Below, piece by piece: positions 7,359-61,924 of a stretch of DNA of 63,214 nucleotides. The DNA comes from a virus. Position 1 is the first letter of the stretch. The number at the start of each line of letters is the position of its first letter. A model generated the notes under the pieces. The model did no database searches. It was not told the origin of the DNA and saw only the letters and a program-made list of their open reading frames with translations. The DNA is taken from the IMG/VR virus record IMGVR_UViG_3300009509_000021, positions 1 through 63,214 of that record; one strand, written 5' to 3'. The position numbers were made by a program, and so were the translations under genes.

Positions 7359-7805
7359 TTACTTGGTGCAGTACGGTGCACCAAGGCGTGAAGCAGCTTC
7401 GTAGATAGACTCGGATCGTGCTGCTCCACTATCCTGAATAGCCCTTCCCACGTGCCCGTATCCATGATTCAACTCCTCCTTGAGTGTCTCTGCCATGATG
7501 AGCGCAAGCGCTGCGTGCCCATCCTTGATGCGGTTGTGTATCCCGGTGGCGATGCGGTGCCACCGTTGCACCTGAGCATCCCGCATGATCGCAGACTTGC
7601 CAGCCCCCGGCGTGATAGCGCGCATCGGCTCACGCCAGTGTGCATTGGCCAGCTTGGTCTCAAGCTCACCAATACGCTCAGCCTGACGCTGGATGGTCTC
7701 GCGCATTTCGATAATCTGGCTTGAGGCATCTGCCAACATTTCTTCGATGGCTACACGTGCGTGCCTTAGTGCAGCTATGCCTTGGTCTTGCGTGATTTTA
7801 CCCAC
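7359..7805 (-). CDS. Unknown early coiled-coil protein
   Basis: The 148-residue protein begins at a GTG at 7805, placed 7 bases after AAGGAG inside the end of the previous gene; the longer open frame to 7958 lies mostly in that gene and is not used. Residues 20-55 form a likely coiled coil. A segment TPGAGKS resembles a P-loop but has no matching Walker B and is probably fortuitous. No family is recognised. Confidence 0.6.
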   Translation of the reverse strand: MGKITQDQGIAALRHARVAIEEMLADASSQIIEMRETIQRQAERIGELETKLANAHWREPMRAITPGAGKSAIMRDAQVQRWHRIATGIHNRIKDGHAALALIMAETLKEELNHGYGHVGRAIQDSGAARSESIYEAASRLGAPYCTK

Positions 7806-7989
7806 AGTACTTCTCCTTGATGTCGTCGTCGTGATAGATGAAAAGCCACGCCATGTATGCGTAGCACTCTTGGTAATTACTTGTGGCCTTTGTCTCCAAT
7901 GTCTTGAGAGCATCGAGTGCATCTTCTTTGGAGAGGCGTCCGTCTGCGTACTGTGCATTGACGAGACGTACCATTTCGCAGATTGTCAT
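7798..7989 (-). CDS. Small unknown protein next to the repeat array
   Basis: The 63-residue protein starts MTICEMVRLVNAQYADGR at the ATG at 7989, nine bases after AGGAG. It is the first gene downstream (leftward) of the repeat-rich gap at 8000-8454, so its transcript either begins in or reads through that gap. It is helical and acidic with no recognised family. Confidence 0.6.
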   Translation of the reverse strand: MTICEMVRLVNAQYADGRLSKEDALDALKTLETKATSNYQECYAYMAWLFIYHDDDIKEKYCG

Positions 7990-8018
7990 GTTCACACACT
8001 CCTGTGAGCAAGGTATTT

Positions 8019-8369
8019 AAATGTCCGGACATTTGCCTTTAAATGTCCACGCCATTTCGTGCGCATGTTATTGATGTGACAGGTAGATTTGCTTAAATGT
8101 CCAAATGTCCACGTGTTTTTGAGAGAGTATAGGTAGTACTTCACGGTTATGCGGTTTTACGTGCGCACACATCACCGCTAGACCAACGCCAAAAACGTTA
8201 TCTCCCTTTTATTATTATGGACATTTGGACATTTAATAATAATAGGGCATTTTATTGCTATGATTTCAACAACTTGAAATGTCCACGCGGGTTGGACATT
8301 TCAGGGGGTCTGCTGGACATTTAAATTTTATACCTTTGGGGTCAGATACTTACACACGTTTAAATGTCC
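8019..8369. repeat. Array of AAATGTCC/GGACATTT repeats (origin or control region)
   Basis: Eleven exact copies of the 8-base unit occur within 351 bases. Seen as AAATGTCC they start at 8019, 8041, 8095, 8103, 8277 and 8362; seen as GGACATTT at 8027, 8219, 8227, 8294 and 8315. The first pair forms a perfect 16-base palindrome, AAATGTCCGGACATTT. Two pairs are in tandem (8095-8110 and 8219-8234). The stretch is AT-rich around 8200-8260 and has no plausible gene. Iterons beside an AT-rich segment and large hairpins fit a replication origin; multiple operators for one repressor is the main alternative. Confidence 0.8.
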
Positions 8370-8372
8370 AAG

Positions 8373-8420
8373 CGGTCTTGCGATGTACTCTCACCGTGGC
8401 AAGAGTACATCGCAAGACCG
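8373..8420. repeat. 19-bp perfect inverted repeat (large hairpin)
   Basis: The arms CGGTCTTGCGATGTACTCT (8373-8391) and its exact complement (8402-8420) enclose a 10-base loop. It begins three bases after the last AAATGTCC repeat. No T tract follows in either direction, so it is not a typical terminator. It could be a single-strand replication structure, an RNase III site or a protein-binding cruciform. Confidence 0.75.
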
Positions 8421-8440
8421 TGACACCATGATGGTGTCAC
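8420..8440. repeat. 21-bp palindrome next to the large hairpin
   Basis: Arms GTGACACCAT (8420-8429) and ATGGTGTCAC (8431-8440) flank one base. It abuts the 19-bp hairpin and lies 15 bases from the stop codon of the 176-residue gene, which reads toward it. The two hairpins together could end or process that transcript. Confidence 0.65.
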
Positions 8441-8454
8441 GATCCTGTCTGACA

Positions 8455-8985
8455 TTACGATGCCAGCTTCGACTCGGCCTTCTCCACCGCTTTGTTGATA
8501 GCAGCGAACGACTTGCCGTTCTTCTGCGCGGTCTTGACAAGACGGAGTACTGCCTCGTCCAGATCCCACGATTTCGCAGGCGTGGACTTACCGAACACAT
8601 CTTCCTTCTCGAAGTACTCAACAAGCAGGGCCTCAAACTTGTGACCGACCGTACCGTCCTCGAACGTGTGGTCTGCCATCAGCTTGGCATACTTACCCTT
8701 CTGCTGCTTACCTGAGAACACACGGTCAGTGCCTGACCATGCGAAAGGAACCAGACTCGGCACTACGCGGGCGAACGTGCGATAGCGACCACACGCCAGC
8801 GATGCTTCAACCATGCGGTTGATGTGCGTCGTGTCGTTGGTCTCAATCGTGCGTGCGATAGCGTTTGCACACAGAGTCTTGAAGTGATCGAGTTGCTGCG
8901 GTCCAGTCTTGATAAGCCCAAGAACTTGGGACGAGAAAGAGCGATTGCTCAGGCGGTCGAACCGTACCAGTTTGATTGCTTCCAT
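8455..8985 (-). CDS. Unknown protein, first gene of the leftward arm
   Basis: The 176-residue protein starts MEAIKLVRFDRLSNRS at the ATG at 8985, eight bases after GGAG; the frame is open 13 codons further. It has a basic N terminus and a Lys/Ala-rich C terminus (about residues 140-176), as might suit a nucleic-acid-binding protein. It is separated from all other genes by the divergent control region and the repeat array, so it is probably made early and alone. A role in replication initiation or repression at the array is an attractive guess, but no family is recognised. Confidence 0.65.
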   Translation of the reverse strand: MEAIKLVRFDRLSNRSFSSQVLGLIKTGPQQLDHFKTLCANAIARTIETNDTTHINRMVEASLACGRYRTFARVVPSLVPFAWSGTDRVFSGKQQKGKYAKLMADHTFEDGTVGHKFEALLVEYFEKEDVFGKSTPAKSWDLDEAVLRLVKTAQKNGKSFAAINKAVEKAESKLAS

Positions 8986-9545
8986 TGTTCCATCTCCAGT
9001 AAACGGTGCAGAATTGCACCCCAAAGCACCCGCGTCGCAGACGCTTTGGCGGTGGAATTCTCCACAGTTTCCTGCTGCCTTTCTTGGGCTGGTCCGATCG
9101 GACCCCCTCGCGCCGGGTTAAGCATATGTCTCCAACGGAGTGATGCGTGACCGACTGGCTGAGTCTAAGGCGTGAGCACTTTCTACGTGTCTGGTGTTAC
9201 CAGAGTAGGCTCCAAGTCTACCAACTACGGCAGAGTCCTTTAATCAACCCCCTTGCCGACTTCTGATCGCGTCGTCTCGGCGTCTTGCTCTCGCGTGACG
9301 CCTAACCGAACACAGCGGCCGTCAGGTTGAACCCTCCACAAGCACCTGACCGGGGCGACGTATCGCACATGCGTATCAGGTACTCATCTATCGGATTATT
9401 AACAAACGACCCCCGGCATGGACAGGCCCACCCCCACACGGTCCGGCGCTCATCTAAGTCCCCCATAAGTAGTTGCAAAATATGAAATGAGGATGTAATC
9501 TACACCGCCTAACCGCAGCACCATGGAATTTCTAGCACTACGATA
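8986..9545. promoter_or_regulatory. Divergent control region without genes
   Basis: This 560-base stretch separates the leftward arm (8985) from the rightward arm (9546). No convincing gene was found; the open frames are short and lack ribosome sites. It is rich in inverted repeats: GGTGCA-gaat-TGCACC (9005-9020), CCAAAGC...GCTTTGG around GCGTC-gca-GACGC (9021-9049), GGTCCGATCGGACC (9091-9104), TCTGGT-gtt-ACCAGA (about 9190-9204) and GTCAGGT...ACCTGAC (9321-9350). It must hold divergent promoters and could also hold a packaging or attachment site. No tRNA cloverleaf could be assembled from it. Confidence 0.55.
9473..9501 (+). promoter_or_regulatory. Weak sigma70-like promoter candidate for the rightward arm
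   Basis: TTGCAA, a 17-base spacer and TAATCT lie about 45 bases before the first rightward gene. The -35 matches four of six consensus bases and the -10 only three of six. The position is right, but the sequence support is weak. Confidence 0.25.
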
Positions 9546-9857
9546 ATGAACATTCACTTCCGCTCGAATCAGCCAGTTCATCTCAATGCGACCATCATCT
9601 TCGTCGGCGGAGCCACCTATGCGTTCCAATGTCGCCTGACCGGTCAAAAATCAGTATGCGGTGTTCACACGATCGTGGGGAGAAAGCCATCCGACATCAA
9701 AGAGCTCTGGCTCGAATACGACGGCGTGAAATACCAGTATCCATTGGTCATGGATGGCAAGCGAGACGGTTTGGCGGTGATCGACATTTACGGCGGCCGG
9801 GATAAGTGGTCGGAGCTGCTCAGACGCAAGGCCATGGAGGTGCCGGTCGGTGAATAA
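9546..9857 (+). CDS. Small unknown protein, paralogue of the next gene
   Basis: The 103-residue protein ends with IYGGRDKWSELLRRKAME, closely matching LGGDKWNDLLRQAAMD at the end of the next gene, so the two are diverged tandem paralogues. The ATG lacks a good ribosome site; it overlaps (TAATG) the stop of a seven-codon open frame starting at 9523, which could be a leader peptide or chance. It is the first gene of the rightward arm. No family is recognised. Confidence 0.6.
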   Translation: MNIHFRSNQPVHLNATIIFVGGATYAFQCRLTGQKSVCGVHTIVGRKPSDIKELWLEYDGVKYQYPLVMDGKRDGLAVIDIYGGRDKWSELLRRKAMEVPVGE

Positions 9858-12995: not shown

Positions 12996-13443
12996 CTTCA
13001 ATGCGATTTCTGATTCGGATTCTCGGCTCGCTGTTGAGATCGCAATCCAGATCCGCCCCGTTGCAGACATCTTGGGGGTATATAACCTCTCCCGGAAGGA
13101 CTTGGTACGTAAACTCAAAGACCCCATGTTCCGAGACATGGTCAAGCAAGCCAAATCGCTGTGGAGTAGTGATCTCTCTGTCAAAGAACGCATCCGACTC
13201 AAGTCGCAGGTTCTTGTCGAGGACTCCATGCTTGAAATCTTCTCAATCCTACACAATCGAGATAACGCAATCCCAGCCCGCCTCGATGCTTTCAAACAAC
13301 TCGCAAGAGTCGCAGAAGTGGATCAGCCTGAGCGCGGGAAAGGTGATTCGGGTTCAAGGTTCACCGTCTCAATCAATCTCGGAGATACAATCCAACCAGT
13401 CGTAATTGAGGGAACAAGTCATGGCGAAAATGAAACCGCATAA
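12967..13443 (+). CDS. Probable terminase small subunit
   Basis: The 158-residue protein has an N-terminal helical region with a helix-turn-helix-like pattern (VADILGVYNLSRKDLVRKL, about 32-50), a central helical domain and a C-terminal beta-rich tail, as in DNA-recognising small terminases. It starts with TTG, about nine bases after GGGAG, overlapping the RHH gene by 29 bases. Position about 750 bases before the large terminase supports the call; sequence similarity alone is not decisive. Confidence 0.6.
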   Translation: MSTLPATVADFNAISDSDSRLAVEIAIQIRPVADILGVYNLSRKDLVRKLKDPMFRDMVKQAKSLWSSDLSVKERIRLKSQVLVEDSMLEIFSILHNRDNAIPARLDAFKQLARVAEVDQPERGKGDSGSRFTVSINLGDTIQPVVIEGTSHGENETA

Positions 13444-22174: not shown

Positions 22175-22609
22175 TCACGCGACTGCCTTTAGCATACGAG
22201 AGGCCCATGAGCTTTTCTTCCAGAGGTCATCTCCGGGATGCACACAGGCCATGAATGTTTCGAGATCGGGGTGTTCGATGTGTTGGTAGTCACCAAGACC
22301 ATCGATTGGAGGGGGTTGTTGCTTACAAATAACCAGAGCTTTGATTGTGTCGTGTCCAAGCTGTTGCCACGCTTCTACTCTGTTGTTCCCCATTGCAATG
22401 CGAAAGCGTGGGGGGTTTCCTGAGTCAACTTCAACAACAATAGGGTTTCTTAACCCGTTCTCCTTGATGTTTTCTTTAAGCGCTAAGAACTCGTCGAGAG
22501 GCATACCCCCAGTCTTCAAATCACCGTGTCTCATGTGACTGAAGTTGAGGATATTCAGCCTTGCTATCGGTAACTCCTCAAAGTAGTAAGCCCGGTAGCG
22601 GGAGTACAT
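22175..22609 (-). CDS. ParB-like domain protein
   Basis: The 144-residue protein matches the ParB N-terminal (sulfiredoxin-like) fold: ARLNILNF strand, LKENIKENGLRNPIVV, then GNNRVEAWQQLGHDTIKALV at residues 74-93, corresponding to the GxxR nucleotide-binding box. There is no helix-turn-helix DNA-binding domain, so it is a stand-alone domain, perhaps a CTP-binding switch or nuclease-like protein. It is the first gene of the leftward block, starting 84 bases from the portal gene on the other strand. Confidence 0.75.
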   Translation of the reverse strand: MYSRYRAYYFEELPIARLNILNFSHMRHGDLKTGGMPLDEFLALKENIKENGLRNPIVVEVDSGNPPRFRIAMGNNRVEAWQQLGHDTIKALVICKQQPPPIDGLGDYQHIEHPDLETFMACVHPGDDLWKKSSWASRMLKAVA

Positions 22610-28091: not shown

Positions 28092-28441
28092 TGCCAAAGT
28101 CTATTGACGATATCCTGACTGATGCTCGCGTCATTTTGAATGACGAGCTGGGAGATCGTTACACAGATGCAGAACTGATTTCAGATTTGAACAGCGCCAT
28201 CTCAATGACGAAGATGATCCGACCGGACATTTTCATTTTGGGGGAAGCGCTGCCTGAATTTACGACTGCGGATCTTGGACAGGTTCCAGCTACTGACTTC
28301 CCGCTGCCTGAAGTCGTATACCAGAGCTTTGTGTATTACCTCGCAGGTAATGCTGAGCTACGGGATGATGAGTTCGCAGTTGATGGTAGGGCAATGACTT
28401 TGCTTGCTGCTTACAGGAGGAACCTTACCGGAACTGCATAA
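28091..28441 (+). CDS. Head-tail adaptor protein
   Basis: The 116-residue protein fits a phage adaptor family seen beneath the portal (DUF6682-like): ILTDARVILNDELGDRYTDAEL, then LNSAISMTKMIRPDIF. It probably bridges portal and tail proteins. Location after the capsid gene supports this. Confidence 0.65.
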   Translation: MPKSIDDILTDARVILNDELGDRYTDAELISDLNSAISMTKMIRPDIFILGEALPEFTTADLGQVPATDFPLPEVVYQSFVYYLAGNAELRDDEFAVDGRAMTLLAAYRRNLTGTA

Positions 28442-50500: not shown

Positions 50501-51823
50501 CCACCTGAAGCGCAGATGATTGTTGAGCAACTGGAAGCTGACAACATCATTCAGTCCACTATTGCTCACGAGTTTGGTGACATGCTCTCACCAAATGCAA
50601 TGAACAAGATGCGTAAGCACGCACTTGGGATGCCTGTTGCACGTACCGCAGAGCTCGCGGTGCAGGTAATGGAGAAGGTTCCGGAAGCAGTCGAACACTT
50701 TAACCGTATCAGTACTGCGCTGGCTATCTACAACCTGACAAAAGGCAACATGCAAGCAGTCACTGACGGCGTGCAGGCAACACAGTTCAATTACGATACG
50801 GGTAACCGGGCTCGTCTCCTCAAAGAGCTACCCGGAGGACATGGTGGTCGTCTTCTTATCACTCCGGTCATGATGTTCAAGACATACGGTATTGGTATTG
50901 CTCGACTGTTATACGGTGCAATGATTGATGTCGTACGCAAGGAAGGCGGGAGAGCTGAAGCGGCTAAGCTGGCGGCGGGGCTCATCACTTCGCATACCTT
51001 GTTCGGCGGTGTGGCTGGTGGCTTGATGATGGCACCGGTCATGGCGATTCAAGCAGCAGCCAACGCTGTGTTCAGTGAGGCTGGTGACGAGTGGGATTTG
51101 GAAGATGCTGTAGAGGAATGGGCACGAGAGATTAGTGGTGACACGTTCGCAACCATGGCTCGTCGTGGCATACCAGCTGCAGTACTTGGCACCGATATGA
51201 GTCGTTCAATCAATCTTGGCAACTTGTTGTGGATGAGTGATGACAGGTTGGACCCCACCAAATATGGCGAGCTTGAGCAGATGATCTTCAGGACAGTAGG
51301 TGGCCCCATTGCCAGCTACGGTGCCAATACGTGGCGTGAGGGGGCGAGGTTGATAGATGAAGGTGGTAGGAATTGGCCTGAGTTCTTGGAGGCAGCGATA
51401 CCACTGAAGGCTTATCGTGGTGTATCTCAGGCGGTGCGTTACAACACGCAGGGGATAGAGACTCGGGGTGAGCTTGAGTTCGTGAAGCCAGAGGAGTTCA
51501 AGCATATGTTCCAGACATTGCTTGGGTTCCAGTCGTCACAGAAGACAACGGTGCAGGATGAGTACTACTCTGAGCAAGCTCGTCAGATGAGAAGGTCTGA
51601 TCGCAGGGGTCAGTTAATGAACTGGGCCAACGAAGCAATACGCGATGGAGACTACGATGCTCTTGCCAAGGTCATGAATGACATTGAGAAGTTCAACGAG
51701 TCAATTGCCACACGCCCAGAGGATAGGCAGTACCGTGTTACGCCACGAGACTTGGCCATGCTCAGGTCACGCAGACGCACGGCTCAGCGAGAGTACGACA
51801 AGAAGTTCCGCTACTCTGACTGA
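44537..51823 (+). CDS. Giant polyvalent ejection protein with zincin and SAP-like domains
   Basis: The 2428-residue protein is the last of the internal virion set (gp16-like position). Seen in order: an acidic/Pro-rich N terminus, a Gly/Ala-rich hydrophobic segment (about 240-440), Pro/Glu-rich linkers, a Lys/Ala-rich histone-like stretch (about 857-918), a SAP-like DNA-binding motif LRQRAKELGVKSTGKKEELA (about 924-943), a zinc-peptidase-type HEIVH at 1292-1296, long coiled coils (about 1400-1750) and a final basic helix ending RSRRRTAQREYDKK. This multidomain layout is that of polyvalent proteins of phages and plasmids. It probably enters the cell with the DNA. Catalysis is not proven. Confidence 0.75.
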   Translation: MAWRELTQEDEVKQTPPESNQGFALPVPQDPEFTDLKKSLFEEVKAGIQGAEDPRFARLRFGPRDRQGGGGEGALPPEEPTQWRQLEDPPPAPKPKEEMGVWDRLVDWTSRSVIEQMAGGAREMGQRFAFESATETGKELQQVRDLEGQPEGQTGYFGPRSLGDMMRHPFKYMNPVDALAKMGLSATEEGRQVLEAKLLEEMQGKLDKAKKYAEGAEMRPFSKVTQQFLNPESENSAWEDFMADPVTIVAELGTRSLPNMAPGMALGVAGGTAAGLPGFSAGMGAGSARVEYAATIMDELQKQKIDVYNAEELMGVLGNSELMDEIHQKAVTRSKNIGGADAAAGALGGTVLVKKLGGPVITKLTEAIAQMGTQGTLGGLGEALAMEATGEADSLWEAAQTRDVLAEVAGEAVTAPIDVAAATISGVREQRAGKTVPIAETDIDPDTGKPVIRKEPEVEVTPDVQAETRAPAFETPEDGMSEAERAGIEAALDEQAQPEQSTLDLPPQEGQPAPPTPEPTQATPTPPAGETQTAPVEDQVITEEDLVNEPSLPDMNESTATPEDVAAITQREEDLAEPAPAPVEEAQPVESPMIDKKEVETGFRDLNKRTKKGMPGIRRAIRELGTAIQAVFPDAKLPSLKGTIGPKRIADFFATLDEQVVIDDVLPNLKEYLRAVLESPDAATAVQNFNSLKEYVQNSGVGVVSEGAKTPYLQQATKGITAYDTYEAERTSKKQKYKTVDKNKKSPTYGKVVERERLTGPKNRLANRAVAVDELATTVTSLTERATELGISVPAEVNETVRRARSYRESSQIAKPRTLKGGAGSTVTPQKFSAKNLNEVGGKLRAAAQTLVEQIAAAEAEAPKKPKVEAKVEAKKPVTEAPAKPKKAEAAKKTSKAKAEKKAAPEKPAAKKEQAPALKAYNELRQRAKELGVKSTGKKEELAARVAEAEQARGEVKVEKQVKVTKKGKPKKVETVKAAPDPEAVIEVAPVPTRGKQAGKVVEELGFEAGTSLAEALEESGIDKKSADRVRGLIAQADEEGQKKIIQAIRNYKGADDMVNFVATVNDALGGQVDNVAMMDVLKFVETMAERKAMTLDEQNRSASQEALAEEAAAQGMSVEDYKFILEETGQYNEEMEQAETPWSDEFHDMSVDEFENSQFMTSDSVPQGALDSMKDIVRAMMKKGGLIDFMYRFTKQRGKPDPGPMTVNGLLEAIITALPENNRYVPLARRLLQLDLDIPVYLYDDSPSLSDGRKVLGSYYPGNEFDPSTRRIRLYWGEDTDKRRVIATALHEIVHAATLAGYHSDPVFRSEIDALYDQAVEAMDQQEPNWRDMNVQKTAKYYGLTDQLEFIAEALTNPEFQQWLSQIPSGKEQRQTSVAGTMSGLMRSFINSIKKYLGYSIRNSVLEDVLILVDANLQTEEDVLISQQKLQVQHRRAKERLKAEDTVVSERNEVLDTQKELGTTLRSKIKQILGMTNDLAQRGNLGLSNLDVMERDFRALFDKAAATIKKANPLTAYTKAKNSASALARKYEKQAYQLLRKLQKVDNAVRSKMETIMRDVTLSNIDPTQPLNSAANAHIWTKGGKKTPPRISKKYADKAPKARQNWINFQKAHPEEAALLQEMAALTRKIHDTKVRSALFALGEMFELPSSMISALQAATEAADIDKIIHPDAVEVLEKKLEGADKKTKKAIEKLIAQAEAHAEVAKSAKKILHESSIKGWYFPLRRYGDFVVSTEPDVTGSDRYVSFHQTQEEANRIAAALNAKYPDNPVTVSLKLQKAASTADVKSVVGDLTRRFRGEGNKATRDRLRAAMAEVLAANAAYQSQLTRQNVDGVAASDMARGFEEYVHVSKFTIGDLLVSHRIADAINDLNDLQANATGVTDNERIQIGRVVNEIKKRNVSDANDRQISKFQRAVGLIGFFNYLGAPSYWALNATQTYTVTVPYITAKFGIKAPVVLANAQGTVLKAVAKALASNDKSYEGFKAQLPPEAQMIVEQLEADNIIQSTIAHEFGDMLSPNAMNKMRKHALGMPVARTAELAVQVMEKVPEAVEHFNRISTALAIYNLTKGNMQAVTDGVQATQFNYDTGNRARLLKELPGGHGGRLLITPVMMFKTYGIGIARLLYGAMIDVVRKEGGRAEAAKLAAGLITSHTLFGGVAGGLMMAPVMAIQAAANAVFSEAGDEWDLEDAVEEWAREISGDTFATMARRGIPAAVLGTDMSRSINLGNLLWMSDDRLDPTKYGELEQMIFRTVGGPIASYGANTWREGARLIDEGGRNWPEFLEAAIPLKAYRGVSQAVRYNTQGIETRGELEFVKPEEFKHMFQTLLGFQSSQKTTVQDEYYSEQARQMRRSDRRGQLMNWANEAIRDGDYDALAKVMNDIEKFNESIATRPEDRQYRVTPRDLAMLRSRRRTAQREYDKKFRYSD

Positions 51824-54564
51824 TCTTCAAGGAGTTCGATGAAGGCTACATCGTCCAGCGTGATGTCTATGCACGGCGCACGTGTTTGTACTGCGTTGTC
51901 AATACCAACGGTGACTGATGCCTTACGCTCGACGCATCCCTGAGCTCTCAGAGCCTCAACAAGTCGGGTGTGAGGTTCCTTATGGTGCTCGTACACCCAC
52001 TCGACAAACGGGGCACGCTTTATCCTCACCTTCTTGTCCTCTTTGGCGTAGACACCAAGAATCTCGCCCCGAGGTAGTGGTGAGCGCAGGCTGCCCACTG
52101 ATGCTACGCCCTTCCCTGATAGGTGGTCGAACACTACGATCTGATCTTTATGTATGTCCAAGAATTGGAACAGGTATTTCTTGGCCCGGATCTCGATAGG
52201 ATCAAAGTCCATTGTCTGCTCCGCACGGCTCCTGCGGAACTCCTTAACCAGCCAGCTCGTGAACTCATCAATGTTGATAGCAGTCCAGCCCTGCTTGTTG
52301 GTGATGATGGCGGCGGTGAGTAGCGTGCTGCAAGTAGCAACCCAGAAGCGTTCAGCTGAATCAGCATGAACTTTCTCTGAGAAAGACCGTTTAACTTTCT
52401 CCAACAAAGGGGGGAGCTTTTCTTGGTTACGTACCATCCACTCCGCGTACTCACCGCCAATGATTCCGAAGTTCGTATCAAGGGCAGCAGCCATAGCGTC
52501 GATGTCCTGACGCCGCTGCAAATAAGGAACCGTGACCTCGAACACACGCAACAGCCCTGCATCCGTCCCGTGTACCAGATGACGTACGTGATCTGTGATG
52601 GACTCATTCGAGGCCACGGTAATCAGTGTATTCCAAGTACCCACGTGCTGCGTGGTGATGTTTGAACGAAGGCGGGAACGCTCCTTGCCTTGGCTCACTT
52701 GGAACATAAGCAGGACGAATTTTTCGACCTGCTCTTTCATTCTTAGTTCGTCCCAAAACGCAGGTAAATTATTGAGCTTACCCATACGATTAGCGACAGA
52801 TAGGGGGGTATCATCAAGAGCATTAACACCACGACGAGGATCACCCCATACTGCCTGCGCAGTTCTAAGGGCAGTTGACTTACCCGTGCCACTTTTATCA
52901 GATACCAACGCCAGAACACAACCATTCACTCCTGTGAATGTGATGAGCGGGGCCGCGAACGCGGATAGTATTCCTGCCGTAACTGCATGGCGGTCTTCGC
53001 TTGTAAGGTAATGAGCAAGTCTGGTCCAAGCCTCTTTATCTCCCTGTGGTGTGAAGTCCTTGACAAATTCTCGATCAAGAAATGTAACTTCCTTATCACC
53101 CGAGCTCTTAGTAATTGTCCGGTCAATAATCGTAAATGCTGGTTCGTTATCAATTTTTGTCCACCCCAAAGCTAAGGTAGGTTGCCCCACTTGTTTAGCT
53201 TGCACCATCTTGTCGGCCCACGTTGTCATGAGCTTAACGAACTCCGGATATTCATGCGGTTGTAACGGTACATCAGCATTCGAGAGTTCGACAAGTAGCT
53301 TCCGCTTGTCAGCCAACGCAGAGGTCGTAAAGGTTGCCTGCTTTGCTCCGTACTTGTCCACGGTGAATCTAAATACCATTCCCTGACTTGGGTCCGGTGA
53401 GCTAAACAGTTGGAAGTCTTCAATAGCAAAAGACACAACCTTGACAGCTTTGCTTTCAACTTCACCGTTCTCATTCTCTTTGTTCTCTAATCTGTAGATT
53501 GCCTTGTCGTCTTGTTTGTACGGAAACGGTATTTCAGTACCATCAGTCTCGCGGCCAAGAACAATCGGACTCTTGATCCGTCCACTAAATCGACAAGTTT
53601 TGCACTTCTCGGGGAGATACATACCCAGAGTTTTACAAAGCGGTGGGCCAAATTTGCCCGACTCTTTGACACGAAGCCGCTGAGCGTACTTCTTCTCCGT
53701 ACGTTGGTAATCATATCCCGGGTGCTGATCCGAAAGAGAATGGATGTACTCGCTGCCATCAACCGCATATGCCATGAGTGATAGCTGAGCCATCCAGAGT
53801 GGTTCGACTTGTCCCGCCCCGCCAGTTTCGTAAGTGTGCTTAAGGACGTTGCAACGCTCGATGATTTTCCGTCCGAAGAAGGGAAGCCCATCGCTTGTAG
53901 CCGCGAAGTCAGTGTCCATCTCCTGCGCCATAGCGCCGAGTCTTTCGAGTGCCTGAGACTTCGTGGTAGCCAGCTTCTCGTTGAGTGTCGTCGGAGAATA
54001 TTCTTGGGTAGTGGCATGTATTACTTTGACTTCGCGTGGCGCGTCACCCTTTTGATTGTAGGTGCCGGGGACTCTGAGGATTCTGGCGGCGTCGGCTGTG
54101 ACGGTTGGGTCTGCTCCAAACTCATGGACTTCGCACAGTTCTTTAAGTGCTGTTGCCATCGGGATCCATGCTTCAACTGATACATCCTTGTTGAATGTCC
54201 AGTACGCATGGATGCCACCACCTGAATCTACCAGTATCGACGGTCGGACGAAGTGTTCGTCGCAGAAACTGTATAGTTCCTTGATAGCAGACTTCTTATC
54301 TGGATATAACTTTCCGAGTCCGCAGTCGATATCAAGATAGAGTGCTCGCTTGTATTCACAATCGTGTTGGGTACGCTGTTCAGCAAAGCTGCCAGTCGCA
54401 AAGTAAACGTCGCACTTTTTTCCCTGACATTTATTCGCAAAAGATACGAGTGCGTCGAGGTCTCGTAATTTGTGTTGAGAAAATCCTCTACGTGTAACGA
54501 GTGCTCCGTAGAGTGTGTGGCCTGAGCTTGGTAGGGTGCGTTGCAGGAATTCTTTGGCATCCAT
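51811..54564 (-). CDS. Primase-helicase (AEP primase plus DUF927-like helicase)
   Basis: The 917-residue protein has archaeo-eukaryotic-type primase motifs: LDID at residues 77-80, SGGGIHAYW at 114-122 and RILRVPGTYNQK at 161-172. Its C-terminal half has a Walker A motif SGTGKSTAL (about 555-563) and Walker B-like FWDELRMK (about 603-610), as in DUF927/superfamily 3-like helicases. It would prime and unwind DNA at the fork. A strong hairpin lies upstream of its start. Its end overlaps the giant virion gene on the other strand by 13 bases. Confidence 0.8.
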   Translation of the reverse strand: MDAKEFLQRTLPSSGHTLYGALVTRRGFSQHKLRDLDALVSFANKCQGKKCDVYFATGSFAEQRTQHDCEYKRALYLDIDCGLGKLYPDKKSAIKELYSFCDEHFVRPSILVDSGGGIHAYWTFNKDVSVEAWIPMATALKELCEVHEFGADPTVTADAARILRVPGTYNQKGDAPREVKVIHATTQEYSPTTLNEKLATTKSQALERLGAMAQEMDTDFAATSDGLPFFGRKIIERCNVLKHTYETGGAGQVEPLWMAQLSLMAYAVDGSEYIHSLSDQHPGYDYQRTEKKYAQRLRVKESGKFGPPLCKTLGMYLPEKCKTCRFSGRIKSPIVLGRETDGTEIPFPYKQDDKAIYRLENKENENGEVESKAVKVVSFAIEDFQLFSSPDPSQGMVFRFTVDKYGAKQATFTTSALADKRKLLVELSNADVPLQPHEYPEFVKLMTTWADKMVQAKQVGQPTLALGWTKIDNEPAFTIIDRTITKSSGDKEVTFLDREFVKDFTPQGDKEAWTRLAHYLTSEDRHAVTAGILSAFAAPLITFTGVNGCVLALVSDKSGTGKSTALRTAQAVWGDPRRGVNALDDTPLSVANRMGKLNNLPAFWDELRMKEQVEKFVLLMFQVSQGKERSRLRSNITTQHVGTWNTLITVASNESITDHVRHLVHGTDAGLLRVFEVTVPYLQRRQDIDAMAAALDTNFGIIGGEYAEWMVRNQEKLPPLLEKVKRSFSEKVHADSAERFWVATCSTLLTAAIITNKQGWTAINIDEFTSWLVKEFRRSRAEQTMDFDPIEIRAKKYLFQFLDIHKDQIVVFDHLSGKGVASVGSLRSPLPRGEILGVYAKEDKKVRIKRAPFVEWVYEHHKEPHTRLVEALRAQGCVERKASVTVGIDNAVQTRAPCIDITLDDVAFIELLEDQSE

Positions 54565-57853: not shown

Positions 57854-58531
57854 TCACTCTCCGTGGTGTGGACATTTGGATACTGGGCAATACTTCTTGC
57901 ATAGATAGCTCGGACGCGCAGGAAAAGACTCCTCTCTGTGAGCCTTCTCATAACGCTTCAAACGCGGCATCAACTCCACAACGATCCTCTTGATATCGTC
58001 GCGAACCAAAGGAACTTCATCCCTCGTCAGCTTTTTCTCCTTTGTCCACAAGTAACAGAGATCAACTGTTTGAATCTCTGGCTCATGTAGCATCAGCAAC
58101 GTCCCTGCCAGCCGTAGCTGTGTGAAATCGTCACTGATCTTTCCTGTTTTGTAATCGACAACGACAGCCTTGGGGCCATTGACGATTGCGAGGTCAATAA
58201 TAGCACGACACCATGTATCTTTCGAGAACCAGTCACACGGTTGGAACATATTGTCGATAGCAAGTTGTTGCTCGGTCAGCTTCTCCCCTGCTGCATCGGA
58301 CAGCTTGGCTGCGTATTTCTCCAAGTGACGCAAGTTCATGGGGAGTTTGGCCCCCTTGCCTACGCGATTTTCCAATGCCTTGTGAACAATTTTTCCATAC
58401 CGCATTTGTTCTGACTCTTGAAACGGTATGTCCTTGCGAACTGACTCATGCCAGAACTTTTTAGGGCAAGTCTCAAAGCTGTTTAGTCGGCTATACGACC
58501 ATGCGGCTTGTTTAGCCTTTTTTGTTGGCAC
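57854..58531 (-). CDS. Cas4/RecB-like PD-(D/E)XK nuclease
   Basis: The 225-residue protein has the Cas4/RecB-type order: SYSRLNSFETCPKKFW (about 12-27), GKIVHKALE, then AIIDLAIVNGPKAVVVDYKT (about 114-133; catalytic D, D and K), and a C-terminal cysteine cluster CKKYCPVSKC that with the N-terminal cysteine could hold an iron-sulfur cluster. It is likely a 5'-3' or 3'-5' exonuclease for recombination or replication. It is coupled to the VRR-NUC gene. Confidence 0.85.
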   Translation of the reverse strand: MPTKKAKQAAWSYSRLNSFETCPKKFWHESVRKDIPFQESEQMRYGKIVHKALENRVGKGAKLPMNLRHLEKYAAKLSDAAGEKLTEQQLAIDNMFQPCDWFSKDTWCRAIIDLAIVNGPKAVVVDYKTGKISDDFTQLRLAGTLLMLHEPEIQTVDLCYLWTKEKKLTRDEVPLVRDDIKRIVVELMPRLKRYEKAHREESFPARPSYLCKKYCPVSKCPHHGE

Positions 58532-58739
58532 TACGTCGCTCCATTTCAGTTACACAGAATTCAATAACGTTTCGTATGCCAACTTCATTAACTAATATGT
58601 CAGCCACTTCCTTGCTGTTGACGTACTGGTCTGCTGTCCGATACATACCAATGATTTTTGGCCATGCCGAACATTTAGCTAATCGCTCTGCGAGAAATGC
58701 ATCTTCTGTCATTTCAAACAGGTCACTTTGCTTCTCCAT
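58512..58739 (-). CDS. Small unknown protein
   Basis: The 75-residue protein starts MEKQSDLFEMTEDAFLAERL at an ATG preceded by GGAG; the frame opens four codons earlier at 58751. It is helical and acidic. It overlaps the Cas4-like gene by 20 bases and the polymerase gene by 17 bases, so it is part of the replication operon. Confidence 0.6.
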   Translation of the reverse strand: MEKQSDLFEMTEDAFLAERLAKCSAWPKIIGMYRTADQYVNSKEVADILVNEVGIRNVIEFCVTEMERRSANKKG

Positions 58740-60567
58740 AATTGTCTCCAACTCCTATCTCACAGTTGACTGGTAGGTTAGGCATCCACGGCACAGGAGC
58801 CGTTAGCGCCATACGTAATGCTTTGACGAATGTCGTTACCTGATCTTCACGAATAACGTACACAAGTTCGTCATGGACAGATAACGCAGCGGTTACGCCT
58901 GCTCTTGCTAACCGCAGCTCTGCTGTCGTCATAACAATTCTGGCAAGTGCTTGGACAACATTCTCTGTCAGCTTGCCACCATAGATATCACGCCATTCCT
59001 TACCGAATTTGTATTTGTAGCGGCCGTTGGCGTTAGTGAGTTCCGGATACGTCAGGAACATGCCGTTTGGTAGCAATATCTGGCCAAGAAGAACATCTAT
59101 CGGCCCAAGACTAAATCCTTGGCCTGACAACATGCACTGTTTGATGTGTTCCATCTTGCCCCAAAGATCGACTATCTTGGTGAAGGAGGAACGGTAGGTC
59201 TGCACGACTGCTTGGGCATCTGGGTAGGTAAAGTCTTCGACGCCGAAGGCGAGCATACTGTCGTAGAACTTCTGAGCACCCGATTGATAACCCAAGGAGA
59301 GGACGCCGGTCTTAGCGACGAACCTTTCAGTCTCATGTTTCTTAGTGATTGTTCTAGCGTATACCTTGTCACCAAATTCGCAGTAAACGTCACGATCACC
59401 CGCAGGGATCGCGTCGTAATACCTAAATAGTTCGACAAGATCATCCTGCCCTGCAAGACAGGCTGTGATACGCGCTTCGATCTGTGACAAATCCCCTGCC
59501 ACCACCTTGTAACCGGGCGGTGCGATGATAGCGCGGCGCAGCGGAGACTTACGCCCAAGATTTTGCAGATTGAGCTTATCCAATCCGGAAAAACGGCCCG
59601 GGTGTGCGCCGTAGTATAGCAATGGACATGCCAGCCACGATTCGGCTGTTGCGTTGGCGACTGCGGAAAATCTTTCAAGGCGGGTTTCTTCGATGGTGGA
59701 TTTGAATTTGAGGCGTGCATTGACCAAGTTCCTGACATTAGGGTTGTCATGCCGTAGAAGGCGTGTGAACTGGGGATCGCTCTTTGCAAAGGCAAAGGTT
59801 TGCTCACCCGTTGTTGGTGATAGTTTGGTGGGAGGTTCTATGCCGTACTTACGCAAAAGATCAGCAAATTTCGGGTTGGACATTAACGGGCTAGGATCAT
59901 CAAGCCCTGTCTTGGCAAGGGTTTCAGCCTTGTCAGCTTTAACTTCCCGCAGAGCTTGGTCAACAATAGTCTTATCAACTCTGAGCTTGGGGCGAGTAAA
60001 TTTTTTGACGGTGAGGTCGATCAGCCTGACCTCATCCTTAGGGAATTGGGGGTATAGCTTTTGGAAGACGCGAGAAGTGATAGCAACGTCTTGTATACAG
60101 TAGGCTGCGTAACGAAGTAGCTGTTCCTTATCGAAATCTCTCCGCCGCATACCCGAGACGTTATGAACTTCAGTACCCTTATCGCCACAGTTCAGTCGTC
60201 GAGAAACTGAATCAAGGTTCATCTGCCCTGTGTATGGTGTAACAAAAGGACGCGCCCCCATCATCGTGCAGAAGTAGCGCCACGGTTTGATACCTAGTTT
60301 CCATTCGAGTATCGCCCCATCAAACATGGCGTTATGAGCGACACAAATCGTTCCCTTCTCCTCAAGATCATAAGCAGATAAGAACGCGGAAACATCGAGT
60401 AGGCTGTCAGCCGAATGCCATCTTGGTTCGCCGCCATTAACAGATACGGCAAGACCAATAATCTCGAAACGCGGATCGTTAATATACTGTGCAGTCGTGA
60501 TGTCTTTAAGCGAGAAAGACTTAGCATCATAATAAGTCTCAAAATCAATCGTTACGAATTTTGCCAT
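58723..60567 (-). CDS. Family A DNA polymerase with 3'-5' exonuclease
   Basis: The 614-residue polymerase has exonuclease motifs DFETY (residues 8-12), AHNAMFDG (about 77-84) and YCIQDVAIT (about 156-164), and polymerase motif A AGDLSQIEAR (about 354-363), motif B RFVAKTGVLSLGYQSG (about 412-427) and motif C VHDELVYV (about 560-567). At the position equal to E. coli Pol I Phe762 it has Leu. It is the main replicative polymerase of the phage. Its start overlaps the next upstream gene by 23 bases. Confidence 0.92.
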   Translation of the reverse strand: MAKFVTIDFETYYDAKSFSLKDITTAQYINDPRFEIIGLAVSVNGGEPRWHSADSLLDVSAFLSAYDLEEKGTICVAHNAMFDGAILEWKLGIKPWRYFCTMMGARPFVTPYTGQMNLDSVSRRLNCGDKGTEVHNVSGMRRRDFDKEQLLRYAAYCIQDVAITSRVFQKLYPQFPKDEVRLIDLTVKKFTRPKLRVDKTIVDQALREVKADKAETLAKTGLDDPSPLMSNPKFADLLRKYGIEPPTKLSPTTGEQTFAFAKSDPQFTRLLRHDNPNVRNLVNARLKFKSTIEETRLERFSAVANATAESWLACPLLYYGAHPGRFSGLDKLNLQNLGRKSPLRRAIIAPPGYKVVAGDLSQIEARITACLAGQDDLVELFRYYDAIPAGDRDVYCEFGDKVYARTITKKHETERFVAKTGVLSLGYQSGAQKFYDSMLAFGVEDFTYPDAQAVVQTYRSSFTKIVDLWGKMEHIKQCMLSGQGFSLGPIDVLLGQILLPNGMFLTYPELTNANGRYKYKFGKEWRDIYGGKLTENVVQALARIVMTTAELRLARAGVTAALSVHDELVYVIREDQVTTFVKALRMALTAPVPWMPNLPVNCEIGVGDNYGEAK

Positions 60568-61180: not shown

Positions 61181-61728
61181 TACTTCACCAGTGTCAGCTT
61201 AGCCTTGCCGGAGTGGACAGCATTGACGTTGTTAATCATATGCATGAACGCTTCGGACGAATTGAGCCAACGCCCATCGTCTGACTTCATTGCACCCATA
61301 GCATGAAGGGCCTTGTGACATTCCTCAAGTTCCTTGCCGGTGAGTGTGAAGTTGATCTGATGATGGTCAATAGCTTCGATGCGATTCTGGATCGCACGTA
61401 TACCGATCTTGTCGTTGATCTTCGGAAGCACATCACACATATGCGTGAGGCCGAAACGCTTAAGCAATTCGACTGCTTCGTGCTTGAGATATTTGAGTCG
61501 CCGGAAGTGGCGATACATCGAAGCGTACTTGAAGCCAGTGGAAGGCGTGTACGTTAGTTCTTCTTCGATAAGGTGGGTCATGGAGTTGTACTCAAGTAGC
61601 TCGTACAGCTTGCCATGTTGGATAGACGACAAGATGGAACCCATGTCGTAGTAAGCCTCTACTGTCTGATAGTCCAACTCTTTCAGACGGTCGAGGAGTT
61701 TGGCGGCATACGCTTTATCTGTTGCCAT
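61180..61728 (-). CDS. Unknown protein, helical
   Basis: The 182-residue protein starts MATDKAYAAKLLDRLKELDY at the ATG at 61728, six bases after AAAGGAG. It is helical with a segment LEYNSMTHLIEEELTYTP near 45-62. It overlaps csrA by 14 bases, so the two are probably co-translated. Function is unknown. Confidence 0.65.
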   Translation of the reverse strand: MATDKAYAAKLLDRLKELDYQTVEAYYDMGSILSSIQHGKLYELLEYNSMTHLIEEELTYTPSTGFKYASMYRHFRRLKYLKHEAVELLKRFGLTHMCDVLPKINDKIGIRAIQNRIEAIDHHQINFTLTGKELEECHKALHAMGAMKSDDGRWLNSSEAFMHMINNVNAVHSGKAKLTLVK

Positions 61729-61924
61729 TGTTTTCTCCTTTATGATCGTCGGGGTAGCGGTCAAGTATCTCGCTCCTCACGATATTAACGTCCTTGGGGG
61801 CGTCGAAACCTACGCGGATTTCTGTCCCTGTCGGACCCTGAGCCGATAGGTAGGTCACAACAACATCCCCTGCGGGATGCTTGATTACTACACTATCGCC
61901 AATCCTTCTCGTTAATATGAGCAT
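61715..61924 (-). CDS. csrA: CsrA/RsmA-type RNA-binding translational regulator
   Basis: The 69-residue protein matches CsrA: MLILTRRIGDSVVI at the start, GTEIRVGFDAPKDVNIVRSE in the middle. The RNA-contact residues Leu4, Arg6 and the late Arg of the VxREE position (Arg50 here, numbered 44 in E. coli) are kept, with about six extra residues in the middle loop. CsrA dimers bind GGA motifs in mRNA leaders and block or alter translation. A phage copy could reset host carbon or biofilm genes, or control the GGA-rich early phage leaders. AGGAG precedes the ATG. Confidence 0.88.
   Translation of the reverse strand: MLILTRRIGDSVVIKHPAGDVVVTYLSAQGPTGTEIRVGFDAPKDVNIVRSEILDRYPDDHKGENNGNR

Follow-up and report, generated by a model that had tools for sequence, protein, structure and literature searches.

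An octamer array at the AT maximum of a ~63-kb tailed-phage genome is a probable replication origin with SaPI/PICI-like anatomy

Results

Genomic setting of the array

The window analysed here is the whole of IMG/VR record IMGVR_UViG_3300009509_000021, a stretch of 63,214 nucleotides. The record carries a 41-bp repeat at its ends and is therefore probably a complete circular map of ~63,173 bp. It is the genome of a tailed phage, with the terminase, portal and capsid genes on the + strand and a long replication operon on the - strand that encodes CsrA, a family A DNA polymerase, a PD-(D/E)XK nuclease, an SNF2 helicase and a primase-helicase. The CsrA-like regulator at 61715-61924 (Pfam CsrA, 1.1e-14) is 77% identical in the close relative G007. 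Among isolates, the Rhizobium phages of the RHph_TM27A group are nearest, with a capsid protein that is 57% identical, and Pseudomonas phage Rollin is more distant. A DNA search with the array region gave no match to any named phage. Relatives were also seen as separate ~61-kb contigs in Bradyrhizobium assemblies (L308 and L309; NZ_JADPKS010000067.1 and NZ_PSRT01000042.1), pointing to a carrier or plasmid-like state or else to phage DNA present in the culture.

The array lies in a non-coding gap between two leftward open reading frames, 7798-7995 and 8455-8985, and the gap itself contains only spurious 50-aa frames. The features of the locus, and the genes to which we refer below, are as follows.

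8019-8369, six copies on + and five on -: iteron array of 11 exact AAATGTCC/GGACATTT octamers (exact-copy count and shuffles), proposed replication origin
8019-8034, both strands: abutting palindromic pair AAATGTCC-GGACATTT, copies at 8019/8027
8093-8111, +: tandem direct iteron pair TTAAATGTCCAAATGTCCA (8095/8103), left arm of a 19-bp perfect inverted repeat
8206-8265: 60 bp with the highest A+T content of the genome (77%), a proposed DNA-unwinding element
8218-8236, -: opposite-orientation tandem iteron pair (8219/8227), right arm of the 19-bp perfect inverted repeat
8277-8301: convergent iteron pair, 8277 on + and 8294 on -
8373-8447: two overlapping hairpins (arms of 19 nt and 17 nt) that separate the array from the 176-aa gene
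8455-8985, -: 176-aa protein beside the array, without known family
51811-54564, -: 917-aa fused AEP primase and DUF927 helicase, proposed initiator
58723-60567, -: family A DNA polymerase

The octamer is concentrated in one gap

The array had been described from the letters alone as 11 octamers in both orientations within 351 non-coding bases, and both the exact count and the shuffles bear this out. Octamers start at 8019, 8041, 8095, 8103, 8277 and 8362 on the + strand and at 8027, 8219, 8227, 8294 and 8315 on the - strand, and a near-copy with one mismatch lies inside the array at 8245-8252. The tandem pairs (8095/8103 and 8219/8227) and the palindromic pair (8019/8027) of that description are present as claimed. 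In Markov shuffles of the 351-bp gap (n=1000), no 8-mer was repeated more than three times, against 11 copies of the most repeated 8-mer in the gap itself.

A count against shuffled sequence was what the sequence-only reading had named as the check that could undo its proposal, and the octamer turned out not to be common elsewhere. The whole window has 13 exact copies, whereas 100 shuffles of it gave a mean of 1.91 (sd 1.22, maximum 6). The iteron is specific for the array within its replicon, with 11 of the 13 copies falling in 8019-8369. The same reading had noticed a single copy outside the array, at 57870-57877; there is a second at 28225-28232, and both are intragenic and within chance expectation. 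When one mismatch is allowed, the window has 42 octamers against 50 expected, which is below expectation, and the octamer is not generally over-represented across the window.

The large hairpins reported next to the array were recovered at 8373-8447. They are unlike ordinary terminators because no T run follows them, and they are not established as a feature conserved among the relatives. It is possible that they serve as a priming hairpin for a RepB'-like primase. An Rfam search gave no match.

The neighbouring 176-aa protein has no relatives in INPHARED or IMG/VR. Its sole detectable homologue, found by tblastn at 25% identity, adjoins the TAATGTCC array in G016 / L122, and a profile of the protein found no relatives among the genes flanking other arrays. 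Its predicted structure is of low confidence and has no PDB match. Judged by these sequence comparisons, the protein is not widely conserved. We do not claim it as the array binder, given the one homologue and the low-confidence structure without a PDB match.

Many relatives carry arrays in the same slot, mostly of other words

Relatives were gathered by searching with the capsid, MoxR-like ATPase and terminase proteins, which yielded many IMG/VR contigs, and arrays were identified by scanning for repeats and by a statistical survey that included shuffled controls. More than 25 related contigs have a short-repeat array between the terminase and MoxR genes, a count that is approximate because some of the surveyed loci overlap or share one phage. 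These arrays score 6 to 23, whereas the shuffled controls reach at most 5.1 on the same scale. The survey method gave no clear array in about half of the relatives whose contigs cover the slot. Repeats in the matching gap, the other check that had been named, are thus present in many relatives.

The repeated word mostly differs from that of the window: it is TAATGTCC, AGGTCTAG, TAATCTA or others. By contig, we found TAATGTCCA in G016, GAATGTC in G032 and AGGTCTAG in G031, and further words of slot arrays are TAATCTA, TAATTCTA, CCATCTA, TTGTACAA, TGTAACA and CCACCAT. Scanning for the tandem-pair pattern AAATGTCCAAATGTCC gave four more long contigs, G058-G061 (62.6-68.6 kb), each with a AAATGTCC array in the terminase/MoxR slot that holds 8 of 8, 9 of 9, 7 of 7 and 4 of 5 of its copies. 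These four are only distantly similar to the window in their proteins (23-25% identity for the primase-helicase and ~40% for the terminase). The close relatives G007, G008 and G011 have primase-helicases that are 70-78% identical, but their contigs lack the array region, in which AAATGTCC-like arrays would be predicted.

Dense repeats were also seen at other places, namely at ~10500-12600 in L194 (AGCGAGCC) and at ~18000 in L267 (CGGCTACG, 15 copies), the latter away from the AT maximum. These repeats could belong to an element of another kind.

The array coincides with the AT maximum, where iterons tend to change orientation

An AT-rich core had been claimed for the array, and the most AT-rich 60 bp of the genome indeed falls within it: 60-bp windows of at least 75% A+T occur in the window only at 8206-8280. 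The A+T content of the array is not exceeded by any 60-bp window outside it in 17 of the 20 genomes tested (three being partial contigs). The exceptions are G032, which has one higher window, G043 and G056. The repeats first picked in G043 and G056 do not lie at the AT maximum; the AT peak of G043 bears a separate GTGATAAA array.

Across 32 arrays, the orientation of the iterons tends to flip at the AT peak, with 180 of 243 against 156.3 expected (sd 4.7), a difference whose significance is overstated because tandem copies were treated as independent. This plan of two opposed sets is cleanest in G058, G060, G061, L383 and L375. The array of the window is looser, its outer copies being mixed in orientation and its AT peak overlapping the right-hand tandem pair.

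Other marks of origins were sought as well. GC skew, which the sequence-only reading had proposed as a check, has its cumulative minimum no more than 3.5 kb from the array in 6 of 12 genomes. This measure is confounded by gene direction and not decisive, and GC skew at four-fold sites in the window gave no replication asymmetry. DnaA boxes (exact TTATCCACA, 20 relatives) form no cluster at any array; in G039, two TTATCCACA copies lie 43 bp apart, far from its array.

The phage encodes a Rep/Cch-like primase-helicase

The 917-aa protein matches DUF927 (2e-18), and its match to RepB_primase is slightly under the Pfam cut-off. Its predicted structure has a mean pLDDT of 78.9, and the top PDB matches of the model are SCCmec Cch (5dgk, E 2.8e-20) and SaPIbov1 Rep (8tch, E 2.6e-17), while the primase part also matches RepB' and S-2L PrimPol. 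Going by the predicted structure, the protein belongs to the SaPIbov1 Rep/Cch family of initiator helicases, which open iteron origins. The DUF927 protein Cch is related to SaPIbov1 Rep, and SaPI Reps recognize their iteron origins via the C-terminal domain (PMC7581432).

The C-terminus of the primase-helicase, whose C-terminal domain spans about residues 785-917, was no more alike between phages that share an iteron than between those that do not, and no other window protein was specially common to the members of the AATGTC group. Since the C-terminus does not follow the iteron, no protein is specially shared and the 176-aa protein is not widely conserved, we divide the role of iteron binder among three candidates: on balance it would be the phage primase-helicase, another phage protein is a rather doubtful candidate, and a host protein is an unlikely one.

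Discussion

Here, we have described an array of 11 octamers in a fixed slot of a tailed-phage genome. The array probably serves this ~63-kb phage as a replication origin with an anatomy like that of SaPI/PICI origins. The sequence-only reading had offered the array as a candidate origin or master switch. The origin half of this proposal gains from the conserved slot, the AT maximum, the iteron plan and the Rep/Cch-like helicase. The switch half gains little, because 7600-9700 contains no sigma-70-like promoter where 2.1 would be expected by chance, with the caveat that host promoters may differ.

A switch would mean that the octamers are a multi-site operator through which a phage regulator controls the long leftward operon that starts left of the array. 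The array does lie upstream of the leftward early genes, which extend across the circle from 7995 to 51811. Dimeric regulators, ribbon-helix-helix proteins among them, typically use tandem 8-bp sites that occur in both orientations. However, no ribbon-helix-helix protein was found among the proteins searched, and the genomes that have AAATGTCC arrays concentrate nearly all of their copies in the single array and have none at other operons. An operator, moreover, gives no reason to expect the AT maximum of the genome in the array, and we regard this explanation as improbable. That the AT maximum is unaccounted for applies equally to a pac- or cos-like packaging site, at which the small terminase subunit would bind short sites that are repeated, in the manner of phage P1 pac. 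Such a site would suit the closeness of array and terminase gene in most relatives, as well as the several contigs whose ends fall a few kb upstream of MoxR, but contigs do not end consistently at the array. Taken as physical genome ends, the contig ends are only mildly uneven and not decisive. The small open reading frame 13001-13405, unnamed by Pfam and PHROGs, lies directly upstream of the large terminase, is kept in nearly all relatives and is the likelier small subunit; a packaging site is thus very improbable.

A parS-like partition centromere of a plasmid-like prophage is hardly credible. It could draw on a ParB_N-like 144-aa protein encoded at 22175-22609 and on the relatives that occur as ~61-kb contigs in Bradyrhizobium assemblies; the ParB_N-like gene, however, adjoins the portal gene and is found in close relatives only, and the proteins searched yielded no ParA.

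For the replication origin that we prefer, we infer iteron binding, melting and initiation, and the identity of the binder, in the following scheme. An initiator, most probably the phage primase-helicase (51811-54564), would bind the AAATGTCC iterons in their opposed tandem pairs and melt the AT-rich tract between or at the iterons. The primase-helicase would then load as a hexameric helicase, its fused AEP primase would prime synthesis, and the phage family A DNA polymerase (58723-60567) would extend the primers.

It is quite possible, though we put it forward tentatively, that the whole clade of ~55-68-kb tailed phages uses a SaPI/PICI-type replicon, in which a fused primase-initiator helicase acts in trans on a two-sided iteron origin of fixed position, and in which the recognition word has been replaced many times. 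A 2018 description found the organisation of PICI origins in no other known bacterial replicon. If our suggestion is true, phages of this clade could have given rise to the satellite replicons or be a sister to them, and the phage origins would form a natural series of matched initiator-iteron pairs. Iteron origins as such are already well known. The literature searched gave no precedent for the placement of the array, for the phage clade or for iteron words that turn over while the slot stays fixed, which leaves their novelty unproven, and no annotated origin was found for this phage clade. The array offers a candidate origin for a widespread, little-studied clade, testable in the isolates Rollin and the Rhizobium phages. 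It also ties tailed-phage replication to the initiator helicases of SaPI and SCC elements, and the many natural iteron variants provide material on how initiators change their DNA specificity.

Comparison with known systems

Phages RHph_TM27A and Rollin have core genes that are related to those of the window and in similar order, and no origin is annotated in their records as shown. Rollin has a TATGCAA array with the AT maximum of its genome at 250-650. The RHph gap is ~770 bp, with the strongest AT peak in the terminase/MoxR slot, and its repeats are degenerate. In the same gap of Rollin (L148, 1-700), repeats of the AAAAGGTAGTAACTTACTACCTTTT type were seen beside the TATGCAA array.

In phage lambda, as in iteron plasmids, the iterons lie beside an AT-rich unwinding element, an arrangement shared by the window. 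Lambda O and the plasmid Reps recruit the host helicase and act on longer iterons, mostly arranged as direct repeats, whereas the presumed initiator of the window is itself a helicase. Phage P4 has an alpha protein that combines primase, helicase and origin binder, and its origin has multiple copies of a short iteron. The window likewise combines a fused primase-helicase with a multi-copy short-iteron array, a likeness drawn from the description of alpha. P4, however, is a satellite with another iteron sequence, and the window is a tailed phage.

The closest resemblance is to SaPI/PICI elements, in whose origins an AT-rich region is always bordered by two sets of iterons (PMC6092414). As in SaPIbov1, SaPI1 and EcCICFT073, the window has short iterons in two opposed sets (8095/8103 on + and 8219/8227 on -), and an AT-rich putative melting region lies between them, though its peak overlaps the right-hand pair. 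Where the origins of these elements lie directly 3' of rep or pri-rep, the array of the window is ~17 kb from the primase-helicase gene on the circular map. SaPIs and PICIs are satellites, whereas the window is a ~60-kb tailed phage in which iteron binding is predicted. Both encode their own Rep/Pri-Rep-type initiator helicase, to judge in the window from DUF927 and the structural match to Cch and SaPIbov1 Rep; in some PICIs a primase is fused to the helicase, as it is here, and the iteron sequence varies between the elements just as it does among these phages.
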